The notes under the pieces: generated by a model
The model's database searches: none
Told to the model about the DNA's origin: nothing
What the model saw: only the letters and a program-made list of their open reading frames with translations
DNA from: Rhizobium sp. CIAT894
GTDB lineage: Bacteria; Pseudomonadota; Alphaproteobacteria; Rhizobiales; Rhizobiaceae
Length of the DNA: 64,000 nucleotides
Assembly (NCBI RefSeq): GCF_000172795.2
Contig: NZ_CP020947.1
Span: forward strand, 189,001 to 253,000
Direction: 5' to 3'
Part shown: piece after piece, positions 3,473-16,528 of the stretch
How positions within the stretch are numbered: the stretch's first letter is position 1
How the letters are laid out: each line of letters opens with the position of its first letter
Translations under genes and position numbers: made by a program

Positions 3473-4066
3473 TCAGTGCACCTGGGCGAGCAGCCCGTCG
3501 AGGATCGCGATCATCTTCTGCTCGGCCTCTTCGAGCGACCCGCTATTGTCGAGTTCCGTCACGTCGTAGTCGCCGCGCACCGTCAGCGGGCCGCGGGCAA
3601 GCCGTGCCATGATGTCCTCATGCGTTTCACGTCCGCGCGCTTCCAGCCGGCCGGCCAGCACTTCGGGGCGAGCGGTGACGTTGATGACTTTCAGCCGCGG
3701 GAAGGCGGCCTGGAAGCGGTGAAGGGCGGAGCGCGAGCCATTGGCGACGACGACATGACCCTTGGAAAGGGCGACGGAGACTTCGGCCGGAATGCCGTAT
3801 TTCAAGCCGTGCGCTTCCCACCAGACAGCGAAGGAGCCGGACTGCTCCATGGCCGCAAAACCTTGGAGCGAGACCGAAAGATGATTTTCGCCACCGGCAT
3901 CGCGGTGGCGGGTAATGACGCGGCGGATGAAATGCACATTGTCACGTCCGGAAAAACGCTTGGCCGCGAGGTTCATCAGCGTGTCCTTGCCGGCGCCGCT
4001 CGGTCCGACGACGACGACCATGATTCCGCGCTCGGCGCCGGCTCCCGGGTGAGGTTCATGCGTCAT
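3473..4066 (-). CDS. phnN: Ribose 1,5-bisphosphate phosphokinase PhnN
   Basis: A 197-residue P-loop kinase that converts ribose 1,5-bisphosphate to 5-phosphoribosyl diphosphate (PRPP), the last step of the C-P lyase pathway. Walker A GPSGAGKDT lies at residues 21-29, and the guanylate-kinase-like body includes FIRRVITRHRDAGGENH, the usual substrate-binding region. Its start overlaps the phnM stop by four bases (ATGA), which points to translational coupling. The length fits known PhnN proteins (about 185-200 residues). Confidence 0.92.
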   Translation of the reverse strand: MTHEPHPGAGAERGIMVVVVGPSGAGKDTLMNLAAKRFSGRDNVHFIRRVITRHRDAGGENHLSVSLQGFAAMEQSGSFAVWWEAHGLKYGIPAEVSVALSKGHVVVANGSRSALHRFQAAFPRLKVINVTARPEVLAGRLEARGRETHEDIMARLARGPLTVRGDYDVTELDNSGSLEEAEQKMIAILDGLLAQVH

Positions 4067-5202
4067 GCGACACGGCGTCCCTGGCGCCAGACGGAGCGTG
4101 TCACCGGCACGCCATGCGAACGGTGGACGCGGACGAGATCGGCGCGCAGCCCGGTGGCGATCCGGCCGCGATCGTCGAGGCTGACGGTGCGGGCGGGCGT
4201 CGACGTCACCATGGCGATCGCCTTCGGCAGGGTAATGCTCTCGACCTCGTCGGCAAGGATGAAGGGCGCATGCAGCAGGCTGAGCGGCACGTAATCGGAG
4301 GACAGCACGTCGAGCACGCCCATCTCGGCGAGGTCGCGGGCGGCGATATTGCCGGAATGGGACTTGCCGCGCACGATGTTCGGCGCGCCCATCAGCACGC
4401 TCATGCCATGTTCGTGCGAGGCGCGGGCGGCATCGAAGCTGGTCGGGAATTCGGCAAGCCGCACGCCGTTGTCGATCGCCTCGTCGACATGGGAGAGCGT
4501 CGCGTCGTCATGGCTTGCCACGGTAATGCCGCGCTCGGCGCAGACCTTGGCGATAGCGTTGCGATGCGGCGTCGAATTGCGCGCCGATTCCGCCTGGCGC
4601 TTGGCGACGAAACGGGCGAAGACCTCGTCGCTCAGGCCCCGCTTCTTCTGGTAGTAGAAGATATATTGATCCATCGTCTGGAACTGCCGCTGGCCGGGCG
4701 CATGATCCATCAGCGAGACGAGCCGGACATGCCGGTCGTGTTCGAAATCGGCGAAATGTTCGAGCACATTGTCGGCCGAGACCTCGCAGCGCAGATGCAG
4801 CAGGTGCTCGGCGCGCAGCCGGCCTTCCTTCTCGGCCGATTGGATTGCGTCGGCCATGTCGCGCATCTCGCCATGCTCGAAGCCGCCGTCCTCGTCCGCG
4901 CCCATGCGCAGGCAGTCGAATACCGTGGTGATGCCCGAGGTGACGATCTGGGCGTCATGGGCCTGAACTGCGGCGATCTTGTCCCAGCGAATGCCGGGAC
5001 GCGGCTGGTAATGGCCTTCGAGATGATCGGTGTGCAGTTCGACGAGGCCGGGAATGATATAGTCGCCTTCGAAATCTTCGCCGGCCACCGAATTGCCCTC
5101 GGAGATATCGGCAATCTTTCCGTCGCGAATGAGGATCGAGCCTGCGAGGATATCATCCTCGAGAACGATGCGGGCGTTGGAAAACACGGTCTCTTTGCTC
5201 AT
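4063..5202 (-). CDS. phnM: Alpha-D-ribose 1-methylphosphonate 5-triphosphate diphosphatase PhnM
   Basis: A 379-residue amidohydrolase-superfamily enzyme. In the pathway it removes diphosphate from ribose 1-methylphosphonate 5-triphosphate made by the PhnGHI(L) complex. HTDHLEGH at residues 57-64 is the metal-binding motif; SHDDAT and a late SSDYVPLSLL provide further metal and active-site residues expected of PhnM. I chose the ATG at 5202, giving MSKETVFSNARIVLEDD, because the in-frame upstream extension to 5334 lies inside the preceding gene. It is coupled by ATGA overlap to phnN and follows the 2H-fold gene by 13 bases. Confidence 0.93.
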   Translation of the reverse strand: MSKETVFSNARIVLEDDILAGSILIRDGKIADISEGNSVAGEDFEGDYIIPGLVELHTDHLEGHYQPRPGIRWDKIAAVQAHDAQIVTSGITTVFDCLRMGADEDGGFEHGEMRDMADAIQSAEKEGRLRAEHLLHLRCEVSADNVLEHFADFEHDRHVRLVSLMDHAPGQRQFQTMDQYIFYYQKKRGLSDEVFARFVAKRQAESARNSTPHRNAIAKVCAERGITVASHDDATLSHVDEAIDNGVRLAEFPTSFDAARASHEHGMSVLMGAPNIVRGKSHSGNIAARDLAEMGVLDVLSSDYVPLSLLHAPFILADEVESITLPKAIAMVTSTPARTVSLDDRGRIATGLRADLVRVHRSHGVPVTRSVWRQGRRVA

Positions 5203-5215
5203 CTCGTCAGGTCTT

Positions 5216-5911
5216 TCAGCTTTTGGCGCCGGAAAGCGGCAGCCAGGAATGAACTTTGAACGGGGCGCCGCGCGTCTCCTCGGTGAAGACGGCAAGGCCG
5301 GAAATCGCAAGCGGCCGGCCGATGAAATCGGCAAAACGCTCGGTCAGGATAGCTTTCATCACCTCGGCGCGTGTCTCGGGCACCTGGCCGGTGAGCGTCA
5401 TGTGGAAGCCGAAATCCTCCATCACATAAGGATAACCCCAGCGCTGCAGATTAGAGCGCTGGCTGTCGCTGAGCTTCTCCGGGTTGCGCCGCGCCACGTC
5501 GGCCGGAGAAAGCGCTGCGCGGAACGGTTCGAATGACTTTACCACCTTCGCGGCGAAATCCTGAAGAGGTTGATGAAGAGAACCGGGAACGAGAGCAAAA
5601 AAACGGCCGAGCTGGCCGAGCACCAGCTCAGGGATCTCGAAGGCGTGCGTGCGCGCGGCAAACTCCTCGACGACGGTCATGAGATCCTTTTCGGTGACGG
5701 AGGCGGCGAGCGAAAACGGCGCCTTGATCGTCGCGTGAAAGCCGTAGCGGCGCGGGTCGGCGGTCAGCTCGAACTGCTCTGCCGCACCGAGGGTCTCATG
5801 CTCCGGCGCCGGATAGGTTTCGCCGGCAAAGGCATCGCGGCCGAGCCAGAGCGAGGCCGCGCCGGTCAGGGGATCATCCTTCGGCGGCGAGAAATAGAGA
5901 GCGTAGCGCAA
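5216..5911 (-). CDS. DUF1045 (phosphonate-operon) protein, 2H phosphoesterase fold
   Basis: A 231-residue protein of the DUF1045 family found in phosphonate operons. Two H-x-T motifs, H59-A-T61 in YGFHATIKAPF and H170-M-T172 in GFHMTLTGQ, are the paired catalytic signatures of 2H phosphoesterases, which open or hydrolyse cyclic phosphates on ribose. I chose the TTG at 5911-5909, with AGGA eight bases upstream, because the protein then begins MRYALYFSPP; the longer open frame runs into phnE2. It lies directly before phnM and phnN. No metallo-beta-lactamase PhnP is present in the window, so I infer that it may hydrolyse 5-phosphoribosyl 1,2-cyclic phosphate. This function is not shown by sequence alone. 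Confidence 0.85.
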   Translation of the reverse strand: MRYALYFSPPKDDPLTGAASLWLGRDAFAGETYPAPEHETLGAAEQFELTADPRRYGFHATIKAPFSLAASVTEKDLMTVVEEFAARTHAFEIPELVLGQLGRFFALVPGSLHQPLQDFAAKVVKSFEPFRAALSPADVARRNPEKLSDSQRSNLQRWGYPYVMEDFGFHMTLTGQVPETRAEVMKAILTERFADFIGRPLAISGLAVFTEETRGAPFKVHSWLPLSGAKS

Positions 5912-6054
5912 GGCTTTTATCCTGGGGATCGTCGAAACGGGGGAGCGCAATGTGCAGTGATTTGGCGGCGAACCGCAAGCAGGTTCCCGGCTAAAAGATT
6001 TCCGTGACAGAATGATGATGACGGCAGCGCTGCCACCGTTTTGGACCGGTTGGG

Positions 6055-7398
6055 TCAGTGCGCCTTCGTGCCCATCAGCCGGTGGCGCAGCGCGTTCGAG
6101 GCGGCGTCGAAGAGGAAGACGACGATCAGGATCAGGATGACCATATAGGCGACGTTTTCCCAGTTGGCGTTGGTGCGCATCGCCTCCCAGAGTTTGAGGC
6201 CGATGCCGCCCGCGCCGACGGCGCCGATGATGGTCGCGCCGCGCACGTTCGATTCCCATTGGTAGAGGGTCTGACTGACGATGACGGGAACGATCTGCGG
6301 CATAATGCCGTAACGATGGACGAGCACGGTCTGAGCGCCGGTCGATTGGATGCCTTCCCGCGGCTTGTTGTCGATATTCTCGAGGCCCTCGGAATAGAGC
6401 TTGCCGAGCGTGCCGGTCTCGGTGAGGAAGATTGCGCCGGAACCGGCGAGCGGGCCGGGGCCGAAGGCGCGCGTCAGGAACAGCGCCCAGATCAGCATGT
6501 CGACCGAGCGCAGGAAATCGAAGAAGCGTTTCAGGATCTGATTGAGCAGGCGGTTCGGCGTGATGTTGCGCGCCGCCATGAAGGCGAGCGGAAAGGCGGC
6601 GAGCGAGCCGAGCAAAGTTCCGAGAAACGCCATGACGATCGTCTGGAAAAGCTTGGTCCAGACATCGCCGTGCTGCCATTCGCTGTTGTTCCAGATATCG
6701 TCGAAGGCGAGCGACAGGTTGGACTGGTCGGGCTTAATGCGCGGGCCGGAGATGATGAGGCCAATGACTTCGCCGGCGGGCTTGTCGAAGAAGGAGGATT
6801 GTGTGTCGAAGATGAAATTCGCCCAGCCGATGAAACGCTTGCGGATTTTCACCCGGTCGACGGAAATGCTGACATTCCCGGCAAAACCGAGATCGGCAAG
6901 CACATTGTCGTCATAAACCGTCATCCAGCCAGGCACCGGCCCGATCACCTTCGGCGCACCGCTCGAAACCTCGACCGGCACGCTGACACCATGGGCGGTG
7001 ACGATTGTCTTGTTCTTCGAGACGGTGACCGTGCGGCTGGTACCGCTGATCGAAACGGTGATGCTGCCATCGGGGTTGTTGACCAGCCAGTCGGGATGGG
7101 GATTGTCGCCGAGCGGCGAGAAGCGCGGGTAACGCACTTCGATCGAGCCGTCGTCCTCGATGCGGAATTCCGGCTGAACGTCGTAGCTTACCCATTGGCT
7201 GAGATAGATGCCGACGCGCTCCCAATGCGCTTCGGCAAAGAGCTTCGGCAGATCGAAGAACCAGACGGCATAGAGGCTGTAGAGCAGCGTCGCGATGAGG
7301 ATCATCAGCCCGCCGAAACGCTGGCGGAACGACCGGTGGAAATAGTCCGGATAGCGCGCTTCTATCTCGTTCATCCGGTTTGCGTCGATCACCGTCAT
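6055..7398 (-). CDS. phnE2: Phosphonate ABC transporter permease PhnE2 (long form)
   Basis: A 447-residue inner-membrane permease. One membrane segment lies at about residues 28-50. A long, apparently periplasmic stretch of about 190 residues rich in polar beta-strand-like sequence follows, and then the binding-protein-dependent transport domain with about five helices (for example IVMAFLGTLLGSLAAFPLAFMA split by short loops) and the GAGGIGLKLWEAM coupling region. Ordinary PhnE proteins are about 260-300 residues, so the long N-terminal insertion is the special feature. It starts seven bases after the phnE1 stop, and the pair should form the heterodimeric channel. Confidence 0.9.
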   Translation of the reverse strand: MTVIDANRMNEIEARYPDYFHRSFRQRFGGLMILIATLLYSLYAVWFFDLPKLFAEAHWERVGIYLSQWVSYDVQPEFRIEDDGSIEVRYPRFSPLGDNPHPDWLVNNPDGSITVSISGTSRTVTVSKNKTIVTAHGVSVPVEVSSGAPKVIGPVPGWMTVYDDNVLADLGFAGNVSISVDRVKIRKRFIGWANFIFDTQSSFFDKPAGEVIGLIISGPRIKPDQSNLSLAFDDIWNNSEWQHGDVWTKLFQTIVMAFLGTLLGSLAAFPLAFMAARNITPNRLLNQILKRFFDFLRSVDMLIWALFLTRAFGPGPLAGSGAIFLTETGTLGKLYSEGLENIDNKPREGIQSTGAQTVLVHRYGIMPQIVPVIVSQTLYQWESNVRGATIIGAVGAGGIGLKLWEAMRTNANWENVAYMVILILIVVFLFDAASNALRHRLMGTKAH

Positions 7399-7405
7399 GG
7401 CAGCC

Positions 7406-8365
7406 TCAATGTTGCAGAAGGAAGGCCTGCTCGCCGACGAGGCGGCGGCGCAGCCATGCGGAGAACTGGTCTACGGCAACGATCGTCACGAACAGCAGCA
7501 GAACGAGCGCCATCGTCTTGGCGCCGAAGCCGCGCGAGATCGAAAGCTTCAGCTCCTCGCCGATACCGCCGCCGCCCACAGCGCCGATGATCGTCGAGGC
7601 GCGCACGTTGATCTCGAGCCGCAGCAGCGCATAGGAGGTGAAATTCGGCAGCACCTGCGGCAGGGCGGCGAAACGCACCCGCTCCCACCAGTTGGCGCCG
7701 ACGGCTTTCATGCCCTCATGCGGCTTCATGTCGATATTCTCGGCGACCTCGTAGAAGAGTTTGCCGAGCGCGCCGATCGTATGCAGGGTGATGGCGATGA
7801 TCGCGGCGACCGGCCCGATCGACAGGATCGCCGAAAACAGGCCGGCGATGACGATCTCGGGAAAGGCGCGCAGGAATTCCATCAGGCGCTTGGTGAAGAC
7901 GCGCAGCGGCCATGAACGCGTCAGGTTGCGGGCGGCAAAGAAGCTCAACGGAACGGCAAAGACGAAGGCGACGATCGTCGAGATCAGCGCCACGTTGATC
8001 GTGACGATCATCAGCTCGAAATATTCGGGAATGTAGAAGGCGCCCCAGACGTAGACGCGGCCCTTATCGAAATTGAATTCCTCGCCGCCTTTGTCGTTGA
8101 CGCTCGCGATGTCGAACAGCGCGCGCCAGACGTCGTTCCAATCCTTGGGGATGAGCCAGCTGAGGAAATCGAAGAGATGCGGCAGACGGTCGAAGAAATG
8201 GCCGGCATTGCTTTCGTCGGCGAAGCGGACGGAACTCACGAAAGCCGCAATGAGGATAACCAGGCCAAGCACAGTGTAGAAGCGGCGCTTGGCGACCATC
8301 CGGCCCCAGGCGGTGCCGATCTCCTCGGTGCTCTGCATGTGCGGCTGTGTATCGGCAATAGTCAT
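7406..8365 (-). CDS. phnE1: Phosphonate ABC transporter permease PhnE1
   Basis: A 319-residue inner-membrane permease that pairs with PhnE2. It has an N-terminal membrane segment (about residues 27-47), a short external region with FDKGRVYVWGAFYIPEY, then about five helices of the transport domain and the conserved GAVGGGGIGEELKLS coupling loop. I chose the ATG at 8365 (MTIADTQPHMQ) since the longer open frame overlaps phnD. A strong hairpin lies between phnD and this gene, which could lower permease expression relative to the binding protein. Confidence 0.9.
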   Translation of the reverse strand: MTIADTQPHMQSTEEIGTAWGRMVAKRRFYTVLGLVILIAAFVSSVRFADESNAGHFFDRLPHLFDFLSWLIPKDWNDVWRALFDIASVNDKGGEEFNFDKGRVYVWGAFYIPEYFELMIVTINVALISTIVAFVFAVPLSFFAARNLTRSWPLRVFTKRLMEFLRAFPEIVIAGLFSAILSIGPVAAIIAITLHTIGALGKLFYEVAENIDMKPHEGMKAVGANWWERVRFAALPQVLPNFTSYALLRLEINVRASTIIGAVGGGGIGEELKLSISRGFGAKTMALVLLLFVTIVAVDQFSAWLRRRLVGEQAFLLQH

Positions 8366-8429: not shown

Positions 8430-9335
8430 TCAGCCGCCGATGGCAGCTTTGCGGACTTCGACAACAGTGTTGTAGAACTCGTGCTTGACGGGGGCATAGC
8501 CCTTGTAATCACCGCCTTCGACGGCTGCGAAGCACTTGTGATCCTTTTCCGGCAACGCCGTGAAGAAGGCTGCGAGCTTCGTCTGCCATTCTTCGCCAAG
8601 CGCGTTGCGAACGACGAGCGGGCCGTTCGGGATCAGCGGCGAACGCCAGACTTCAACCAGCTTGTTCGGATCGACGGCGCCCTTGTCGACTTCCTTGCGG
8701 AAGGTGCCGGAGGTGTAGCCGTCCTTGAAATCACCGATGCCAGAGGAGTCGTCGACGGCAACGTCGACCTTGCCGTCGTAAGCGGCGAGAAGGTTGTTCT
8801 CATGGCCGCCATTGAACTGCGTGGAAGCGAAGAACTTGTCGTTCGGCATGCCCGTATCCTTCGGGATCTGCGTCAGCGGAACGAGATAGCCCGAGGTGGA
8901 ATCCGGATCGGCATAGCCGAGCTTCTTGCCCTTGGCGTCCTTGATGGTCTTGATGCCGGAGGACTTCAGGGCAAGGCCGATCGAGTGGTAGCCGGTCGAA
9001 CCGTCCTTCTGCTGCGTCGTCAGGATCGGCGTGACAGCCTTCGGATCCTTGATGTAGACGGCTGCGTAGCCGGAAGCGCCGAGTTCGGCGAAGTCGAGCG
9101 TGCCGCCGAGCAGGCCCTGGATAACGCCGTCATAGTCGGCGGCCGGGAACAGCGAGACCTTCTCGAAGCCGAATTCCTGCTTCAGATGGTCGGCAAGGCA
9201 GGCATAGTTGCGCAGGCGGTCGGTTTCGTTCTCGCCGCCGAGGATGCCGATGCGGAATTCCTTGAGGTCTGCAGCATGGGCGCCGCCGGCGAGCGCGAAG
9301 AGCGCCGTTGCCGCAAAGAGTGCTTTTTTCAACAT
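8430..9335 (-). CDS. phnD: Phosphonate ABC transporter substrate-binding protein PhnD
   Basis: A 301-residue periplasmic binding protein. The signal peptide covers about residues 1-22 (ends GGAHAAD). The mature part begins LKEFRIGILGGENETDR, typical of PhnD proteins, and has the TSGYLVPLTQ and DVAVDDSSGI segments expected to line the phosphonate site. It captures phosphonates in the periplasm and hands them to PhnE1E2 powered by PhnC. It lies between phnC and phnE1 in the usual rhizobial order phnC-D-E1-E2. Confidence 0.93.
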   Translation of the reverse strand: MLKKALFAATALFALAGGAHAADLKEFRIGILGGENETDRLRNYACLADHLKQEFGFEKVSLFPAADYDGVIQGLLGGTLDFAELGASGYAAVYIKDPKAVTPILTTQQKDGSTGYHSIGLALKSSGIKTIKDAKGKKLGYADPDSTSGYLVPLTQIPKDTGMPNDKFFASTQFNGGHENNLLAAYDGKVDVAVDDSSGIGDFKDGYTSGTFRKEVDKGAVDPNKLVEVWRSPLIPNGPLVVRNALGEEWQTKLAAFFTALPEKDHKCFAAVEGGDYKGYAPVKHEFYNTVVEVRKAAIGG

Positions 9336-9419: not shown

Positions 9420-10268
9420 TCAGAGGCCGGCCAGCGCCAGCGGTTGGATGCCGGCGGATTGATTGTCAGCCCGCTCGGGAGCGACAGTGATGGAGGTCGA
9501 GGTCATCGTTTCGTCGATGCCGGCGCCATCCTTGTCCGTCCCGTAAATCGCCTTCACCGCTTCGGCGGTCAGCTCCGACGGCTTGCCGTCGAAGACGACG
9601 CGGCCACGGGCCATGCCGACGATGCGCTCACAATAGTTGCGGGCAGTATCGAGCGTGTGGAGGTTGGTGATGACGGTGATGCCCTCGCGTTCGTTGATAT
9701 CGCGCAGCGCATCCATGACGATCTTGGCGTTCAACGGATCGAGCGAGGCGATCGGCTCGTCGGCTAGCACCATCTTCGGCTTCTGCATCAGGGCGCGGGC
9801 GATCGCCACGCGCTGCTGCTGGCCACCGGAAAGCGTGCCGGCCGGCTGCAGCGCCGTCTGCTCGATGCCGAGGCGCTCCAGGGCTGCGATGGCATGCACG
9901 CGCTCCTCGCGGGTGAAGATGTTGAGCAGGCTCATCAGCGTCGAGCGGTGATTGAGGCGGCCGAGCATGACATTGGTCAACACGTCGAGGCGCGGCACCA
10001 GGTTGAACTGCTGGAAGATCATCGCGCAGTCGCGCTGCCAGTTGCGCAACGCCCGGCCGCGAAGCCTGGAGACTTCGACGCCGGCGAAATGAATGGAACC
10101 GGAACTCGGTTCCTGCAGGCGGTTGATCATGCGCAGCAGCGTCGACTTGCCGGCGCCGGAGCGGCCGATGATGCCGACCATCTGGCCCTGGGGGATATCG
10201 AGCGTGACGGTATCGACGGCGAGCTTGTTTCCGAAACGACGTGTGACATCTTTCAGCTCGAACATCAT
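9420..10268 (-). CDS. phnC: Phosphonate ABC transporter ATP-binding protein PhnC
   Basis: A 282-residue ATPase of the phosphonate importer. It has Walker [12 protein letters not shown] near residues 34-44, signature [15 protein letters not shown], and Walker [13 protein letters not shown], with the PIASLDP variant common in PhnC. I chose the ATG at 10268 because AAGGGA lies five bases upstream; a GTG at 10283 is possible but lacks a ribosome site. It is the first gene of the importer unit and is preceded by a 114-base gap with direct repeats, so it probably has its own promoter. Confidence 0.93.
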
Positions 10269-10331
10269 GCTGGTCCCTTGCACTTCAGGCCTTGGTCAGC
10301 ACCGCATTAGTCCCGCTTGATGAACCTCGAA

Positions 10332-10382: not shown

Positions 10383-11000
10383 TTAACCGTCGTAGCGCGC
10401 CAGAAAATCTTCCGCGCTCAGGTTGCGGAAATCCTGAAGCGCCAGGCGCAGACGATCATGCTCCCAGTCCCACCAGGCAAGCCTGTCCATCCGCTCGCCG
10501 ACCGCTTTCGGAAAGCGCTCGCGGATCAGCTTGGCCGGCACGCCGCCGACGATCGTATAGGGTGCGACGTCCTTTGATACGACCGCGCCGGCGCCGATGA
10601 CGGCGCCGTTGCCGACGCTGACGCCGGGCAGGATGGTCGCCCCATGGCCGATCCAGACGTCGTGGCCGATCGTCACGCGGTTGGCCCGCCGCCAGGCGAA
10701 GAAATCCGTGTCCATGTCCGCGTCCGGCCAGTAATTGGCGGCGCGATAGGTGAAATGATGCAGTGTCGCCCGCCAGGTCGGATGGTTGGTGGCGTTGATG
10801 CGTACAGCGGCGGCGATATTGACGAACTTGCCGATGGTCGCGCACCAGACGGCGCCGTCCTGCATAATGTAGGAATAGTCGCCGAACTCGGCCTCGCTGA
10901 TGCGGCAGCGCTCGGAGACCTCTGTATAACGCCCGAAGGTAGAGTCGCTGACGTCAGCCGTTTCGTGGATAGAGGGCTCGGTGCCCAGCTTGCGGCTCAT
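10383..11000 (-). CDS. Phosphonate-operon hexapeptide-repeat acyltransferase
   Basis: A 205-residue left-handed beta-helix acyltransferase of the group found in phosphonate operons (chloramphenicol/xenobiotic acetyltransferase-like). Hexapeptide repeats run from about residue 12 to 165, for example VTIGHDVWIGHGATIL, GVSVGNGAVIGAGAVV and APYTIVGGVPAKLI. The conserved INATNH stretch near residue 70 holds the likely catalytic histidine. Its start overlaps the phnL stop by four bases (ATGA), so it is translationally coupled to the C-P lyase genes. It may acetylate an aminophosphonate or other intermediate, replacing the GNAT enzyme PhnO of E. coli; the substrate is inference. Confidence 0.85.
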   Translation of the reverse strand: MSRKLGTEPSIHETADVSDSTFGRYTEVSERCRISEAEFGDYSYIMQDGAVWCATIGKFVNIAAAVRINATNHPTWRATLHHFTYRAANYWPDADMDTDFFAWRRANRVTIGHDVWIGHGATILPGVSVGNGAVIGAGAVVSKDVAPYTIVGGVPAKLIRERFPKAVGERMDRLAWWDWEHDRLRLALQDFRNLSAEDFLARYDG

Positions 11001-11704
11001 GCGGCGATCTTTCCAGGCGAGAACTGCTGGACATCGAGGATGCGATCGGCAACGGCTTCCCGCACTTCCTCATCATGGAAAATGCCGAGGAGAGCCACAC
11101 CCGCCTTCTTCTTTTCCGCGATCATGCCGACGACCACGGCGCGGTTTTTTGCATCGAGCGAAGCTGTGGGTTCGTCGAGAAGCAGGATCCTATGTTCGGT
11201 GATAAAGCCGCGCGCGATATTGACGCGTTGCTGCTCGCCACCGGAAAAGGTGGCAGGCGGAAGCTGCCAGAGCGTCTCCGGCAGGTTGAGCTTGGCGAGC
11301 AGGGCACCCGCCTTTTCCCGTGCCTTGACGGCTTCCTCGCCGCGCGCCGTGAGCGGTTCGGCAACCACGTCGATCGCCGCCACGCGCGGCACGGTGCGCA
11401 GGAACTGACTGACATAGCCGAGCGTATGGCGCCGCACATTGAGCACGGTGCGCGGATCGGCGGAGGCCAGATCGACGATGCGCCCGTCGTGGCGGATCAG
11501 GATCTGGCCGCTGTCGACGGCATAATTGCCGTAGATCATTTTGAGCAGCGAACTCTTGCCGATGCCCGAGGGGCCGCCGAGCACGACGCATTCGCCTGCT
11601 GCGACCGAAAAAGCGACGTCGGAGACGACGGGCAATCTGATGCCGTCGCGCAGGTGCATGGTGAAGCTCTTCGAGACTTCGGAAACGACGAGGGGCGTTG
11701 GCAT
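10997..11704 (-). CDS. phnL: C-P lyase system ABC-type protein PhnL
   Basis: A 235-residue ABC ATPase that is part of the C-P lyase machinery rather than a transporter. Walker A GGPSGIGKSSLL, signature FSGGEQQRVNIARGF and Walker B ILLLDEPTASLD are intact. The KSFTMHLRDGIRLPVV opening is characteristic of PhnL. PhnL acts with PhnGHI in attaching the phosphonate to the ribose of ATP. A repeat element of about 125 bases separates it from phnK, unlike the tight phnG-K spacing. Confidence 0.92.
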   Translation of the reverse strand: MPTPLVVSEVSKSFTMHLRDGIRLPVVSDVAFSVAAGECVVLGGPSGIGKSSLLKMIYGNYAVDSGQILIRHDGRIVDLASADPRTVLNVRRHTLGYVSQFLRTVPRVAAIDVVAEPLTARGEEAVKAREKAGALLAKLNLPETLWQLPPATFSGGEQQRVNIARGFITEHRILLLDEPTASLDAKNRAVVVGMIAEKKKAGVALLGIFHDEEVREAVADRILDVQQFSPGKIAA

Positions 11705-11831: not shown

Positions 11832-12608
11832 TCAGACCTGGAGGATCGAGGAGACGAGCAACTGCGTGTAGGGTTCTCTGGGATCGTCGAGCACCCGGTC
11901 GGTCAGCCCGTGTTCGATGACATAGCCGTCCTTCATCACCATCATCCGGTGGGAGAGCAGGCGGGCGACGGCAAGATCGTGGGTGACGATGATGGCCGAG
12001 AGGCCGAGATCGTTGACGAGGCCGCGCACGAGATCGAGCAGGCGGGCCTGCACCGAAACGTCGAGGCCGCCTGTCGGTTCGTCCATGAAGACCAGGCGCG
12101 GGCCGGTGACGAGATTGCGGGCGATCTGCAATCGCTGGCGCATGCCGCCGGAAAAGGCGCGCGGCTGGTCGTCGATGCGGTCGGCATCGATCTCGACGCG
12201 TTCCAGCCAGTCGATGGCGGTGGAGCGGATATTGCCGTAATGCCGGTCACCGATCGCCATCAGCCGCTCGCCGACATTGGCGCCGGCCGAGACCGCCATG
12301 CGCAGGCCGTCGGCCGGATTCTGGTGCACGAAGCCCCAGTCGGTCCGCATCAGGAAGCGGCGTTCGGCCTCGTTCATATGGTAGAGGTCGCGGTAGCTGC
12401 CGTCGCGCATGTGGTATTCGACACTGCCGGTCGTCGGCATCAGCCGGGTGGAAATGCAGTTGAGCAGCGTCGTCTTGCCCGACCCGGATTCGCCGACGAT
12501 GGCGAGAACTTCACCGGGCCAAAGCTCGAAGGAGACGTTCCGGCAGCCGATGCGATTGCCGTAGAACTTCGAGAGGTCATGGACTTTGAGAAGCGGTATG
12601 TCGGTCAT
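11832..12608 (-). CDS. phnK: C-P lyase system ABC-type protein PhnK
   Basis: A 258-residue ABC ATPase similar to dipeptide-transporter ATPases, which binds the C-P lyase core complex at PhnJ. Walker [16 protein letters not shown], signature FSGGMRQRLQIARNL and Walker B LVFMDEPTGGLD are present. The ATG at 12608 (MTDIPLLKVHDLSKFYG) overlaps the phnJ stop by four bases, which decides the start over a longer frame that reaches into phnJ. The length fits PhnK (about 250-260 residues). Confidence 0.93.
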   Translation of the reverse strand: MTDIPLLKVHDLSKFYGNRIGCRNVSFELWPGEVLAIVGESGSGKTTLLNCISTRLMPTTGSVEYHMRDGSYRDLYHMNEAERRFLMRTDWGFVHQNPADGLRMAVSAGANVGERLMAIGDRHYGNIRSTAIDWLERVEIDADRIDDQPRAFSGGMRQRLQIARNLVTGPRLVFMDEPTGGLDVSVQARLLDLVRGLVNDLGLSAIIVTHDLAVARLLSHRMMVMKDGYVIEHGLTDRVLDDPREPYTQLLVSSILQV

Positions 12609-13480
12609 TCTGCAGCCTCCCGGGCCAGCATCTCGCCGGCATGTCCGTGTGCGCGGCGATCTTCGCAATGATCGGTGTCGGAGCAGACGAACATGCGCCC
12701 GCCCTTGTCGTCGAGGATGACCTCATCGAGGTAGACATCACCAGCGCCGCAGAGCGCGCAAGGCCTGTCGAAGCGCTGGATCTCGAAGGGATGGTCCTCA
12801 AAATCCAGGCTGACGACGTCGGTATAGGGCGGCACGGCATAGATGCGCTTTTCGCGACCGGCGCCGAAAAGCTGCAGCGCTTCCGACCTGTGCATCTTCG
12901 GATTATCGAATTTCGGCGTTGGCGAAGGATCCATGACATAGCGCCCGTGCACTTTGACCGGATAGGCATAGGTCGTGGCGATGCGGCCGTTGCGGGCGAT
13001 ATCCTCGTAGAGTTTCACATGCATGAGACCGTATTCCTCGAGCGCATGCATCTTGCGCGTTTCGGTCTCGCGCGGTTCGAGGAAGCGTAGCGGCTCGGGG
13101 ATCGGCACCTGGTAGACGAGCACCTGGCCGGGCCCGAGCTTCTCTTCCGGGATGCGATGGCGCGTCTGGATGATCGTCGCATCGCCGGTGCGCGTCGTCA
13201 CCGCGACATTGGCGACCTTCTGGAAGAAGGCGCGGATCGAAACGGCATTGGTCGTGTCGTCGGCGCCCTGATCGATGACCTTCAGCACGTCGCCAGGCCC
13301 GATGATCGAGGCCGTCACCTGCACGCCGCCGGTGCCCCAGCCGTAAGGCATCGGCATTTCTCTGCTGGCGAAGGGCACCTGGTAGCCCGGAACGGCGATC
13401 GCCTTCAGGATGGCGCGGCGGATCATCCGCTTGGTCTGTTCGTCGAGATAGGCGAAGTTGTAGCTGGCGAGATCGCTCAT
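12605..13480 (-). CDS. phnJ: Alpha-D-ribose 1-methylphosphonate 5-phosphate C-P lyase PhnJ
   Basis: The 291-residue radical SAM enzyme that breaks the carbon-phosphorus bond, releasing methane (from methylphosphonate) and 5-phosphoribosyl 1,2-cyclic phosphate. The C-terminal cysteines show the spacing C-x2-C-x21-C-x5-C (CALC then CSDTDHC), the same as in E. coli PhnJ for cluster binding and the catalytic cysteine. The start at 13480 (MSDLASYNFAYLDEQTKR) overlaps the phnI stop by four bases. An in-frame extension to 13822 lies inside phnI and is not used. Confidence 0.96.
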   Translation of the reverse strand: MSDLASYNFAYLDEQTKRMIRRAILKAIAVPGYQVPFASREMPMPYGWGTGGVQVTASIIGPGDVLKVIDQGADDTTNAVSIRAFFQKVANVAVTTRTGDATIIQTRHRIPEEKLGPGQVLVYQVPIPEPLRFLEPRETETRKMHALEEYGLMHVKLYEDIARNGRIATTYAYPVKVHGRYVMDPSPTPKFDNPKMHRSEALQLFGAGREKRIYAVPPYTDVVSLDFEDHPFEIQRFDRPCALCGAGDVYLDEVILDDKGGRMFVCSDTDHCEDRRAHGHAGEMLAREAAE

Positions 13481-14583
13481 TCGGCGGCTTCCTTCATGTC
13501 TTCGCCGGCATTGCGGGCGGCTTCGAATTCGCGGCGCATGCGGCGGACGAGATCGAGTTCGGCCTGGAAGTCCACATAATGCGGAAGTTTCAGGTGTTCG
13601 ACGAAGCCGGTCGCCTGGACATTGTCGGAGTGCGAGATGACGAATTCCTCGTCCTGCGCCGGCGCGGTGATATCCTCGCCGAGCTCTTCGGCGCGAAGCG
13701 CGCGATCGACCAGCGACATCGCCATCGCCTTGCGCTCGCTCTGGCCGAATACCAGGCCGTAGCCGCGGGTGAATTGCGGCGGCGCCTTGGCCGACCCCTT
13801 GAACTGATTGACCATCTGGCATTCGGTGACCCGGATGACGCCGAGCGAGACGGCAAAGCCGAGCTCCGGCACGTCGAATTCCACCTCGACCTCGCCGATG
13901 CGGATTTCGCCGGTGAAGGGATGATTGCGGCCGTAACCGCGCTGGGTGGAATAACCGAGCGCCAGCAGGAAACCTTCGTCGCCGCGGGCAAGCGCCTGCA
14001 GGCGCAGATCGCGGGTCATCGGGAATTCCATCGGCTCGCGGGTAAGGTCGCCGATCTCGTGATCCTCAGGCATGTCGCCATCGGCCTCGATCAGCCCCTC
14101 CTCGCCGAGGATCTCGGAGACGCGCATGACACGGCCGGTCTCGGCCGGACGCTGGGCGGGCGCTTCGACCGCTTCATCCTCGAGCAGCGAGGGATCGAGC
14201 AGCCGGTGCGTATAGTCGAAGGTGGGCCCAAGCAGCTGGCCGCCCGGCAGGTCCTTGTAAGTCGCCGAGATGCGACGCTCGATCGTCATATCAGCCGTAT
14301 CAAGCGGCTTGGAATAACCGAAGCGTGGCAGCGTCGTGCGATACGCGCGTAGCAGGAAGATCGCCTCGATCATGTCGCCGCGCGATTGGCGGACGGCAAG
14401 GGCTGCGAGCGTGCGGTCGAAAAGCGAGGCCTCGGCCATGACGCGGTCGACGGCGAGGGCAAGTTGTTCGACGATCTGCCCGATGCCGATCGCCGGCAGC
14501 GAACGGTCGCCGCGGCGTCGGTCGGCGAGCAGCCGGTGGGCATTGGCGATGGCGGCCTCGCCACCCTTGACGGCAACATACAT
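13477..14583 (-). CDS. phnI: C-P lyase core protein PhnI
   Basis: A 368-residue core component. PhnI is the nucleosidase of the C-P lyase complex and, with PhnG, PhnH and PhnL, replaces adenine on ATP by the phosphonate. It begins MYVAVKGGEAAIANAHRLL, highly typical of the family, and carries the RRISATYKDLPGGQLLGPTFDY segment. The length agrees with known PhnI (about 354-370). It is coupled to phnJ by ATGA overlap and follows phnH by four bases. Confidence 0.95.
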   Translation of the reverse strand: MYVAVKGGEAAIANAHRLLADRRRGDRSLPAIGIGQIVEQLALAVDRVMAEASLFDRTLAALAVRQSRGDMIEAIFLLRAYRTTLPRFGYSKPLDTADMTIERRISATYKDLPGGQLLGPTFDYTHRLLDPSLLEDEAVEAPAQRPAETGRVMRVSEILGEEGLIEADGDMPEDHEIGDLTREPMEFPMTRDLRLQALARGDEGFLLALGYSTQRGYGRNHPFTGEIRIGEVEVEFDVPELGFAVSLGVIRVTECQMVNQFKGSAKAPPQFTRGYGLVFGQSERKAMAMSLVDRALRAEELGEDITAPAQDEEFVISHSDNVQATGFVEHLKLPHYVDFQAELDLVRRMRREFEAARNAGEDMKEAAE

Positions 14584-14587
14584 GAGC

Positions 14588-15196
14588 TCAGATCTCCGTT
14601 GCTGTGATCTTGGTGGTGCGCGGCAGGCAGACGAAGCGCTTGCCCGAGGTCAGCACGATGTCGATGCCGCGCGGAAAGAGCGCGCGGTTCTCGGTCCACA
14701 GCCTGAGGAAGGTCTCCGGCAGGCCGACAGGCGCGATCTCCGCCACGGTCTGGATGCCGGGACCCGTCAGCGCCAGCCTGTGCCCATCCTCCAGTTCGGC
14801 AAGCTCAATGATCAAGGTCGTCGAACGGTCGGGATATTCCTGCGTGCCCGCCGCAAAAAGCCCGAAGGAGCAAAGCGCGGTGCCGGCCTCGGTGAAGGCA
14901 AAGCGTGCTTCGGCTTTTTCGGTGGTCAACGGCGCGCCGGTGTGGAAACCGAGCCACTCCGGTGCGGCGGATTTCGCCAGTCGCTGGGAAAGCCAGACTG
15001 ATGTGTCGTGGTCGCAAAGCGTCAGCGCGATCGCGCCGGCGGCGATGCCGAGCGGTGTCGGCGGCGCAGCATCGGGCTGAACCGTCTGGATCGTCCCGGG
15101 TCGGGCCATACCATCCATCAGCATCTTGAAGACGCTTTGTGCATGGAAGACCGGCTCGGCAAAGCCGCCGGTCAGGGCTTCTGTCTTGAGACCCAT
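14588..15196 (-). CDS. phnH: C-P lyase core protein PhnH
   Basis: A 202-residue core component of the PhnGHIJ complex, with a fold related to PLP-dependent transferases but without cofactor. FHAQSVFKMLMDGMARPGT near residue 17 and the FRSLMDA-like opening are family features, as is the CLPRTTKI tail. Its start shares one base with the phnG stop (TGATG), so translation is coupled. The length is close to E. coli PhnH (194). Confidence 0.93.
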   Translation of the reverse strand: MGLKTEALTGGFAEPVFHAQSVFKMLMDGMARPGTIQTVQPDAAPPTPLGIAAGAIALTLCDHDTSVWLSQRLAKSAAPEWLGFHTGAPLTTEKAEARFAFTEAGTALCSFGLFAAGTQEYPDRSTTLIIELAELEDGHRLALTGPGIQTVAEIAPVGLPETFLRLWTENRALFPRGIDIVLTSGKRFVCLPRTTKITATEI

Positions 15197-15672
15197 CAGT
15201 TGTCTCCCCGCACCATGGTGAAGAAATCGACGCGAGTCGCCGCCGTCTCGTCGGCCTTGCGGCGCTCAGTAGCGGCGATCCGTCCGGCGATCGGCAAAAG
15301 CAGCGCCTGCTCGACGAAATCCTGTGTCGCCTCCTCCTGCCAAAGCGCGTCGAAGATCGCCGCAAGCCGGGCCTTCTCGCGGTCGGTGCCGAGCGCCTGC
15401 GCATGGCCGACCGAGCCGGAACCGAGCCGGACGGTTGCCCGCGTCACCGTCACTTCGCCGAGATTGAAGGGCGCTCCGCCGCCGCCGATGCGGCCGCGCA
15501 CCATCACCAGCCCGGTCTCCGGTCCGCGCACCGGATGCGCCGCAGGCTTTTGCGGCAGGGCATCCCAGACCGCCCGGAGTTCGCTGCGTTCTGCTCGCGC
15601 CAGCAGATCGGCGGCGCGTTTGCGCCCGGATGCCGTCTGTGACGCAGCGTCTTTGCTGTCCGCTGATATCAT
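15196..15672 (-). CDS. phnG: C-P lyase core protein PhnG
   Basis: A 158-residue core component of the C-P lyase complex and the first gene of the phnGHIJK unit. The family motifs MVRGRIGGGGAPFNLGEV (about residues 57-74) and VGHAQALGTD are clear. I chose the ATG at 15672 because GAGGGA lies seven bases upstream; the alternative upstream start at 15708 would translate through the inverted repeat at 15690-15707. That repeat lies directly before the gene and is the likely PhnF operator. Confidence 0.92.
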   Translation of the reverse strand: MISADSKDAASQTASGRKRAADLLARAERSELRAVWDALPQKPAAHPVRGPETGLVMVRGRIGGGGAPFNLGEVTVTRATVRLGSGSVGHAQALGTDREKARLAAIFDALWQEEATQDFVEQALLLPIAGRIAATERRKADETAATRVDFFTMVRGDN

Positions 15673-15689
15673 CGCCGCTTCCCTCAAAA

Positions 15690-15707
15690 TGTCTATTGAT
15701 ATAGACA
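15690..15707. promoter_or_regulatory. Candidate PhnF operator in front of phnG
   Basis: TGTCTAT-TGAT-ATAGACA is a perfect 7-base inverted repeat with a 4-base spacer, 18 bases upstream of the phnG start and in the phnG/phnF divergent region. GntR/HutC regulators such as PhnF bind TCTATA-type inverted repeats. Binding by PhnF here is inferred from position and form. Confidence 0.7.
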
Positions 15708-15790
15708 ATCATACAAGATACACCTACGCTTAAATCGATGTCGTGACAAGCGTATGACGTCGTGGGCGTGAAAAGACGGGTAGGGATGGC

Positions 15791-16528
15791 ATGGCGGGAT
15801 TGAAGCAGGTGCAAAGACAGACCGGCGTGGCGCTCTGGCGCCAGATCGCCGATCGGATTCGCGAGGCGATCGGCAACGGCGCCTATGACGAGACCGGAAT
15901 GGTGCCGCCGGAAACCGTTCTGGCGCTGCAGTTGGGTGTCAACCGGCATACGGTGCGCAGCGCCCTGGCAGCCTTGGCGCAGGAGGGAATTGTCCGTGCG
16001 GTACAAGGTCGCGGCACGCTGATCGAGCGCAAGGAGCGGCTGAATTTCCCGATCACCCGGCGCACGCGCTTCACTTCAGGCATCGGCGACCAGGCGCGCG
16101 AGATGCGCAGCCTTCTGCTCGATGAGGCGAAGGAGGAAGCAAGCGCCAAGGTTGCCCGCTGGCTGGGCTTGAAGCAGGGAGAACAGGTGATCCGGCTGGA
16201 AACATTGCGCCAGGCAGACAGGCGGCCGGTTTCAAAGGCGACGAGCTGGTTTCCCGCAGCACGCTTCGCCGGCATCGGCGAGGCCTATCGCAAGCACGAA
16301 TCGATCACCAAGGCCTTTGCCGACCTTGGCCTGCCGGACTATGTCAGGGCGACGACAGAAGTGACGGCGGCCCATGCGAACACATCAGACCTGGCCGACC
16401 TGGAGCTCACCCCCGGTGCGATCCTGCTGATCGCCAAGGCGATGAACACCGATCTTGACGGGGTGCCGGTGCAGTATTCGATCAGCCGCTTCGCAGCCGA
16501 CCGGGTGCAGTTCACCATCGAGAATTAA
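15791..16528 (+). CDS. phnF: GntR/HutC-family phosphonate regulator PhnF
   Basis: A 245-residue regulator, divergent from phnG. The N-terminal winged helix (about residues 12-78) includes VALWRQIADRIREAI and NRHTVRSALAALAQEG, followed by a UTRA effector domain from about residue 95 to 240 (VIRLETLRQADRRPVS). It most likely represses the phn genes by binding the inverted repeat at 15690-15707 and is relieved by a phosphonate or pathway intermediate. The ligand is unknown. Confidence 0.9.
   Translation: MAGLKQVQRQTGVALWRQIADRIREAIGNGAYDETGMVPPETVLALQLGVNRHTVRSALAALAQEGIVRAVQGRGTLIERKERLNFPITRRTRFTSGIGDQAREMRSLLLDEAKEEASAKVARWLGLKQGEQVIRLETLRQADRRPVSKATSWFPAARFAGIGEAYRKHESITKAFADLGLPDYVRATTEVTAAHANTSDLADLELTPGAILLIAKAMNTDLDGVPVQYSISRFAADRVQFTIEN

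Follow-up and report, generated by a model that had tools for sequence, protein, structure and literature searches.

A DUF1045 (RcsF) protein as the probable 2H-fold counterpart of PhnP in the C-P lyase cluster of Rhizobium sp. CIAT894

The PhnP step of the carbon-phosphorus (C-P) lyase pathway is carried out in Escherichia coli by PhnP (TIGR03307), a metallo-beta-lactamase-fold enzyme. A protein of another family, for which the same reaction and the same place in the pathway are proposed, was analyzed here. It is encoded by the DUF1045 gene at 5216 to 5911 of a 64,000-nt stretch of Rhizobium sp. CIAT894 (the window; contig NZ_CP020947.1) and belongs to TIGR03223/PF06299, also named RcsF or 'mlr3352-like'. 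Based on the evidence given below, the window protein is very probably a 2H-fold cyclic phosphodiesterase that performs the PhnP step; its substrate, the bond that it breaks and its role in vivo are inferred.

The hypothesis that this family replaces PhnP has already been published and is not new. It dates from 2009 by the account of a 2023 review (PMC10574752), which states that RcsF could process the cyclic intermediate and credits this to Podzelinska 2009; among the 54 operons of the review, PhnP was present in 27, and rcsF, the gene of a 2H phosphodiesterase, was present in the 16 that lacked phnP. Martinez 2013 (PMC3840354) also proposes RcsF for the PhnP step, and describes a fosmid with rcsF and without phnP that allowed E. 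coli lacking phnHIJKLMNOP to grow on methylphosphonate; this complementation lends genetic support to the cluster as a whole rather than to rcsF alone. The DUF1045 proposal is restated from the Hove-Jensen 2014 review in PMC8235418, the RcsF proposal is restated in PMC5649143 and PMC6981132, and a DUF1045 protein is listed among those raised in Phaeobacter under phosphorus limitation (PMC10132767). The present analysis adds a wider mutual exclusion of the two families, a natural fusion to PhnN and a clade of degenerate paralogues.

The original prediction had placed a gene at this interval with paired H-x-T motifs at H59 and H170. The gene is real and the coordinates are right: 231 codons run on the minus strand from a TTG at 5911, with AGGA upstream, to the stop at 5216, and both motifs were found in the translation, as H59-A-T61 and H170-M-T172, which agrees with the two His-x-Thr/Ser motifs of 2H enzymes. 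The protein is a full-length member of TIGR03223, 'putative phosphonate metabolism protein' (277.3 bits, curated cut-off 248.95), and is matched by PF06299 in Pfam with 196 bits. Its length of 231 residues is common to many of the closest homologues among the matches listed, and the closest named proteins among these are from Rhizobium. The protein does not match the PhnP profile, as the NCBIfam scan gave TIGR03223 alone at E up to 0.001.

The gene lies in a C-P lyase cluster, with phnGHIJKL upstream and phnMN downstream. Pfam and NCBIfam models of the neighbors bore out the predicted content of the cluster, phnGHIJKLM and phnN without phnP, and the predicted position of DUF1045 directly before phnM and phnN was likewise confirmed, given that phnM starts 13 nt past the DUF1045 stop and overlaps phnN by 4 nt. 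A phnP gene elsewhere in the genome, against which the prediction had been staked, was ruled out: with 272 bits as the cut-off, TIGR03307 scored no higher than 24.4 bits anywhere in the genome, which consists of 6 contigs and is 100% complete. The window gene is an ordinary phn-linked DUF1045 member without notable difference from its family, and the operon setting is similar in S. meliloti, Mesorhizobium, Paracoccus, Loktanella and Acidovorax; DUF1045 stands beside phnN or phnM in the Mesorhizobium, Paracoccus, Loktanella and Acidovorax loci, on S. meliloti plasmids, and in S. chiapasense.

Sequence searches of the PDB with the window protein and with a 96-row profile gave no meaningful match, and a fold comparison was therefore needed. 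The AlphaFold2 model (predicted local distance difference test 95.7) has a predicted 2H fold, and the top solved structural matches to it were Bacillus subtilis YjcG, the Arabidopsis cyclic phosphodiesterase and E. coli LigT, which places the modeled fold in the 2H superfamily; the list also included AKAP18, Usb1, ASCC1 and mitoribosomal proteins. The Arabidopsis enzyme (1JH6, 1FSI) is close in fold, although it shares 12% identity with the window protein, has 181 residues rather than 231, and acts on ADP-ribose cyclic phosphate. The substrates of E. coli LigT (LigT/ThpR) are RNA or nucleotide 2',3'-cyclic phosphates.

The anticorrelation of DUF1045 and PhnP that the prediction called for was surveyed within the window's own phylum. 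In the first draw, an even sample of 397 Pseudomonadota genomes was searched for PhnJ, PhnP, DUF1045 and PhnN. PhnJ was over the cut-off in 103 genomes, a sub-cut-off match with internal stops in G040 having been removed from 104. PhnP was counted only over its curated cut-off (25 of 45 matches, the 20 weaker ones being dropped); the 25 genomes with PhnP all had PhnJ, and PhnP was within 20 kb of phnJ in all 25 and near phnN by coordinates. Four of the dropped matches (77-86 bits) were in genomes with DUF1045 and PhnJ, off the phnJ contig (G205, G227, G303 and G307). DUF1045 was found in 90 genomes, three of them by weak matches alone (G180, G234 and G349; 28-38 bits), and PhnN in 114 (E up to 1e-20). 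Ten genomes of one family, f47, had PhnN without PhnJ or DUF1045 (G023, G058, G062, G127, G139, G198, G232, G244, G256 and G376). Among 14 named control genomes, PhnN was found in E. coli only (1/14), and PhnJ and PhnP were likewise over the cut-off in E. coli only, PhnP with weaker matches in three more; DUF1045 was found in 0/14, so that the controls hold no positive for the DUF1045 search.

The 103 PhnJ genomes of the first draw comprised 76 with DUF1045 only, 25 with PhnP only, none with both and two with neither; counted by genus (61), the numbers were 44, 16, 0 and 1. The second draw took 180 genomes of the family to which G394 belongs. PhnJ was present in 17 of them, three already counted, and the 17 divided into 15 with DUF1045 only and two with PhnP only, none having both or neither. 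Over both draws, 117 PhnJ genomes comprised 89 with DUF1045 only, 26 with PhnP only and two with neither, and the expected exclusion was observed, DUF1045 and PhnP occurring together in 0/117. The weight of the survey is that nearly every sampled C-P lyase genome has exactly one of the two. Of the 76 genomes with DUF1045 and PhnJ in the first draw, 59 have DUF1045 no more than 20 kb from phnJ, and six more have it on a different contig, at most 5 kb from phnN. PhnN was present in 74 of the 76 and in 25/25 genomes with PhnP.

A direct tie to PhnN was found among the homologues (251 proteins listed of 4055, 6101 and 1264 matches). One of those listed, P0146 (421 residues), joins DUF1045 and PhnN in a natural fusion: TIGR03223 matches residues 11-237, and the PhnN model TIGR02322 matches residues 245-420 (163 bits, cut-off 156). 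It is one sequence, which 25 contigs carry. In 12 Comamonadaceae/Burkholderiales genome loci, DUF1045 and PhnN are separate neighbors behind phnF. A search of the open-access literature aimed at the fusion found no mention of it. A fusion with PhnN suggests that DUF1045 yields ribose 1,5-bisphosphate.

Motif conservation was counted over 117 rows minus three duplicate loci, the fragments of locus L158 and the reference row, a copy being taken as phn-linked when at least one phn gene was found in its locus. Both HxT motifs, Y56 and Y160 were kept in 78/78 phn-linked copies. The same Rhizobium genome carries a second DUF1045 copy (L081:9619-10326; contig 1, 3245769-3246242), 41% identical to the window copy, which has lost the Thr of both motifs and is flanked by an FAD (flavin adenine dinucleotide)-dependent oxidoreductase gene, divergent from that of an MnmC2-type methyltransferase, and by the allantoinase gene puuE. 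Nine such paralogues outside phn clusters form one clade (Shimodaira-Hasegawa-like approximate likelihood ratio test 99) nested among the phn-linked copies of Rhizobiaceae. Both HxT/S motifs are intact in two of the nine, R142 and Y160 are gone in all nine, and both His residues are gone in two. By the pattern of residues, phn-linked copies appear to be held to the motif, and the relocated copy appears free to lose it.

In the proposed mechanism, PhnJ would release 5-phosphoribosyl 1,2-cyclic phosphate, which H59/T61 and H170/T172 of DUF1045 would hold; attack by water would break the bond to O2 and leave ribose 1,5-bisphosphate, which PhnN would phosphorylate to phosphoribosyl pyrophosphate (PRPP). 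That the PhnP step is performed by a different fold, as the prediction had it, is supported inferentially by the mutual exclusion, the absence of PhnP, the predicted fold, the motifs, the adjacency to phnM and phnN, and the PhnN fusion.

Alternatively, the ring could be opened by an enzyme that has escaped recognition, with DUF1045 working on a side product, for example 2',3'-cyclic nucleotides or ribosyl 1,2-cyclic phosphate in dephosphorylated form. Such a role would accord with strong DUF1045 matches in 11 genomes without PhnJ, with 11 of the 76 genomes in which DUF1045 is found neither within 20 kb of phnJ nor within 5 kb of phnN (four of which, G091, G155, G227 and G235, have other phn genes beside DUF1045), and with the two C-P lyase clusters that have neither DUF1045 nor PhnP (G320 and G323; L096 and L097). 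Among 7 of 10 open reading frames (ORFs) scanned in these two clusters for a replacement gene, the only phosphodiesterase domain was that of an EAL/GGDEF signalling protein; the phnN match of G320 lacks the first 29 profile positions, and each of the two genomes stands beside a relative with PhnP in the PhnJ tree, which makes simple loss likely. The side-product role is unlikely, given that 115 of 117 PhnJ genomes have DUF1045 or PhnP and never both, that DUF1045 is fused to PhnN, and that phosphonate yields E. coli phnP mutants no usable phosphorus, which means that E. coli, at least, has no substitute for PhnP at this step. The mutants accumulate ribosyl 1,2-cyclic phosphate (18.6 ppm; PMC3463581). 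Because these mutants fail although E. coli has LigT, a generic 2H enzyme also seems not to be enough.

Two further explanations keep DUF1045 at the same step or beside it. The same cyclic phosphate could be opened at the other bond to give ribose 2,5-bisphosphate, in the way that 2H enzymes turn 2',3'-cyclic phosphates into the 2'-phosphate (PMC5283653); this is very improbable, since 2H enzymes turn the 1'',2''-cyclic phosphate into the 1''-phosphate (PMC5283653) and PhnN, which its models identify as a ribose 1,5-bisphosphokinase, accompanies DUF1045 in 74/76 genomes and is once fused to it. The tight adjacency to phnM and phnN, the fusion, and a paralogue clade that tolerates motif loss would also suit a non-catalytic partner of PhnM or PhnN, a role that is scarcely credible for a protein with both motifs intact in 78/78 phn-linked copies.

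Several observations weigh against assigning the PhnP step to DUF1045. On the PhnJ trees, which were built from rows with a fetched phnJ (102 and 116, including plasmid and named genome loci besides the survey genomes), the PhnP/DUF1045 label requires only two changes with 102 rows and again with 116, and forcing the PhnP rows into one clade was weakly rejected (approximately unbiased test, p = 0.041, 116 rows). Since the two families are clumped by lineage with two exchanges, Fisher p values of the exclusion are overstated. Two genomes, G016 and G032, have PhnJ and DUF1045 without PhnN, and further DUF1045-PhnN fusions were found neither in the 20 loci examined first nor among all the loci compared. 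The motifs are retained in 17/17 orphan DUF1045 copies without phn neighbors and in 4/4 copies beside phnM without phnJ, and the motif comparison is therefore no clean test. The rcsF of the fosmid is identified as DUF1045 by description and gene position, not by sequence, and the literature searched, to the extent of its accessible text, yielded no report of an enzyme assay of DUF1045/RcsF.

A single role is also challenged by the occurrence of DUF1045 without PhnJ in 14 genomes, with strong matches in 11 and weak ones (28-38 bits) in three. In G268 (L089:7759-10501), G355 (L116) and G393 (L082), phnM, DUF1045 and phnN stand together with no PhnJ match. On a plasmid of Mesorhizobium sp. AR07 (L049:11027-12702), DUF1045 directly follows phosphonopyruvate hydrolase in a stretch with no C-P lyase gene annotated, and in Qingshengfaniella no phn gene is near. 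These loci may be decayed clusters or may reflect a different use; the orphan copies with motifs, together with the 11 genomes, suggest that some copies may do something else. Based on the three phnM-DUF1045-phnN loci and on intact-motif orphans in other PhnJ-less genomes, it is conceivable, if doubtful, that a DUF1045-PhnM-PhnN module also works without C-P lyase and could serve as a salvage route to PRPP for ribosyl 1,2-cyclic phosphates of other origin, C-P lyase being only one supplier; these may instead be clusters that recently lost core genes.

If DUF1045 does perform the PhnP step, 89 of the 117 sampled C-P lyase genomes complete the pathway by an enzyme that is invisible to a survey of phnP only, a 'phnP-less' cluster is to be read as complete, and two unrelated folds alternate clearly at one pathway step. 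Ready test proteins are at hand in the fusion P0146 and in the degenerate paralogue.

Upstream of DUF1045 on the same strand, the cluster holds phnGHIJKL, a hexapeptide acyltransferase gene, phnC, phnD, phnE1 and phnE2, and phnF is divergent (Table 1). No NCBIfam model matched the phnI and phnJ ORFs of the window, both of which were named by Pfam.

Table 1. Positions of the DUF1045 gene, its motif codons and the neighboring phn genes in the window
Feature	Positions	Strand	Evidence or remark
phnN, ribose 1,5-bisphosphokinase	3473..4066	-	TIGR02322 222 bits, cut-off 156
phnM, ribosyl phosphonate triphosphate diphosphatase	4063..5202	-	TIGR02318 521 bits; start ATG 5202
DUF1045 / TIGR03223 2H phosphoesterase (RcsF), putative phosphoribosyl 1,2-cyclic phosphate phosphodiesterase	5216..5911	-	TTG start, stop 5216-5218
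His170 codon, second HxT motif	5402..5404	-	H170 in 78/78 phn-linked copies
His59 codon, first HxT motif	5735..5737	-	H59 in 78/78 phn-linked copies
phnE2, ATP-binding cassette (ABC) permease	6055..7398	-	TIGR01097 246 bits, cut-off 217
phnE1, ABC permease	7406..8365	-	TIGR01097 245 bits; ORF begins 8599, start inferred at MTIADTQP
phnD, phosphonate-binding protein	8430..9335	-	TIGR03431 293 bits
phnC, ABC ATPase	9420..10283	-	TIGR02315 321 bits
Hexapeptide-repeat acyltransferase inside cluster	10383..11000	-	PF00132
phnL	10997..11704	-	TIGR02324 333 bits
phnK	11832..12608	-	TIGR02323 411 bits; ORF begins 12668, start inferred at ATG overlapping phnJ
phnJ, C-P lyase	12605..13480	-	PF06007 490 bits; start inferred at MSDLASYNF
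phnI	13477..14583	-	PF05861 548 bits
phnH	14588..15196	-	TIGR03292 207 bits
phnG	15196..15708	-	TIGR03293 161 bits
phnF, GntR-family regulator, divergent from phnG	15791..16528	+	TIGR02325 315 bits

Some further loci were observed during the comparison. Rhizobial C-P lyase clusters of a second type (L042:7171-8028 and L045:7164-8021) have a dipeptide-type ABC transporter and, besides DUF1045-phnN, an annotated phosphodiesterase, which in L042 is calcineurin-like. The conjugative IncP plasmid p2-T1 of Acidovorax sp. T1 (L043) carries a C-P lyase cluster including DUF1045, and aroA lies ~8 kb from its phnN, which is suggestive of a glyphosate setting. Two extra C-P lyase-type loci with DUF1045 fragmented in different frames were found on contig 103 of G170 (L158), the main cluster of which retains an intact DUF1045 copy. 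In the window, the 143-nt gap between phnE2 and DUF1045 (5912-6054, minus strand) contains one CTGTCAC, which we take to resemble half of a Pho box and which may be there by chance.
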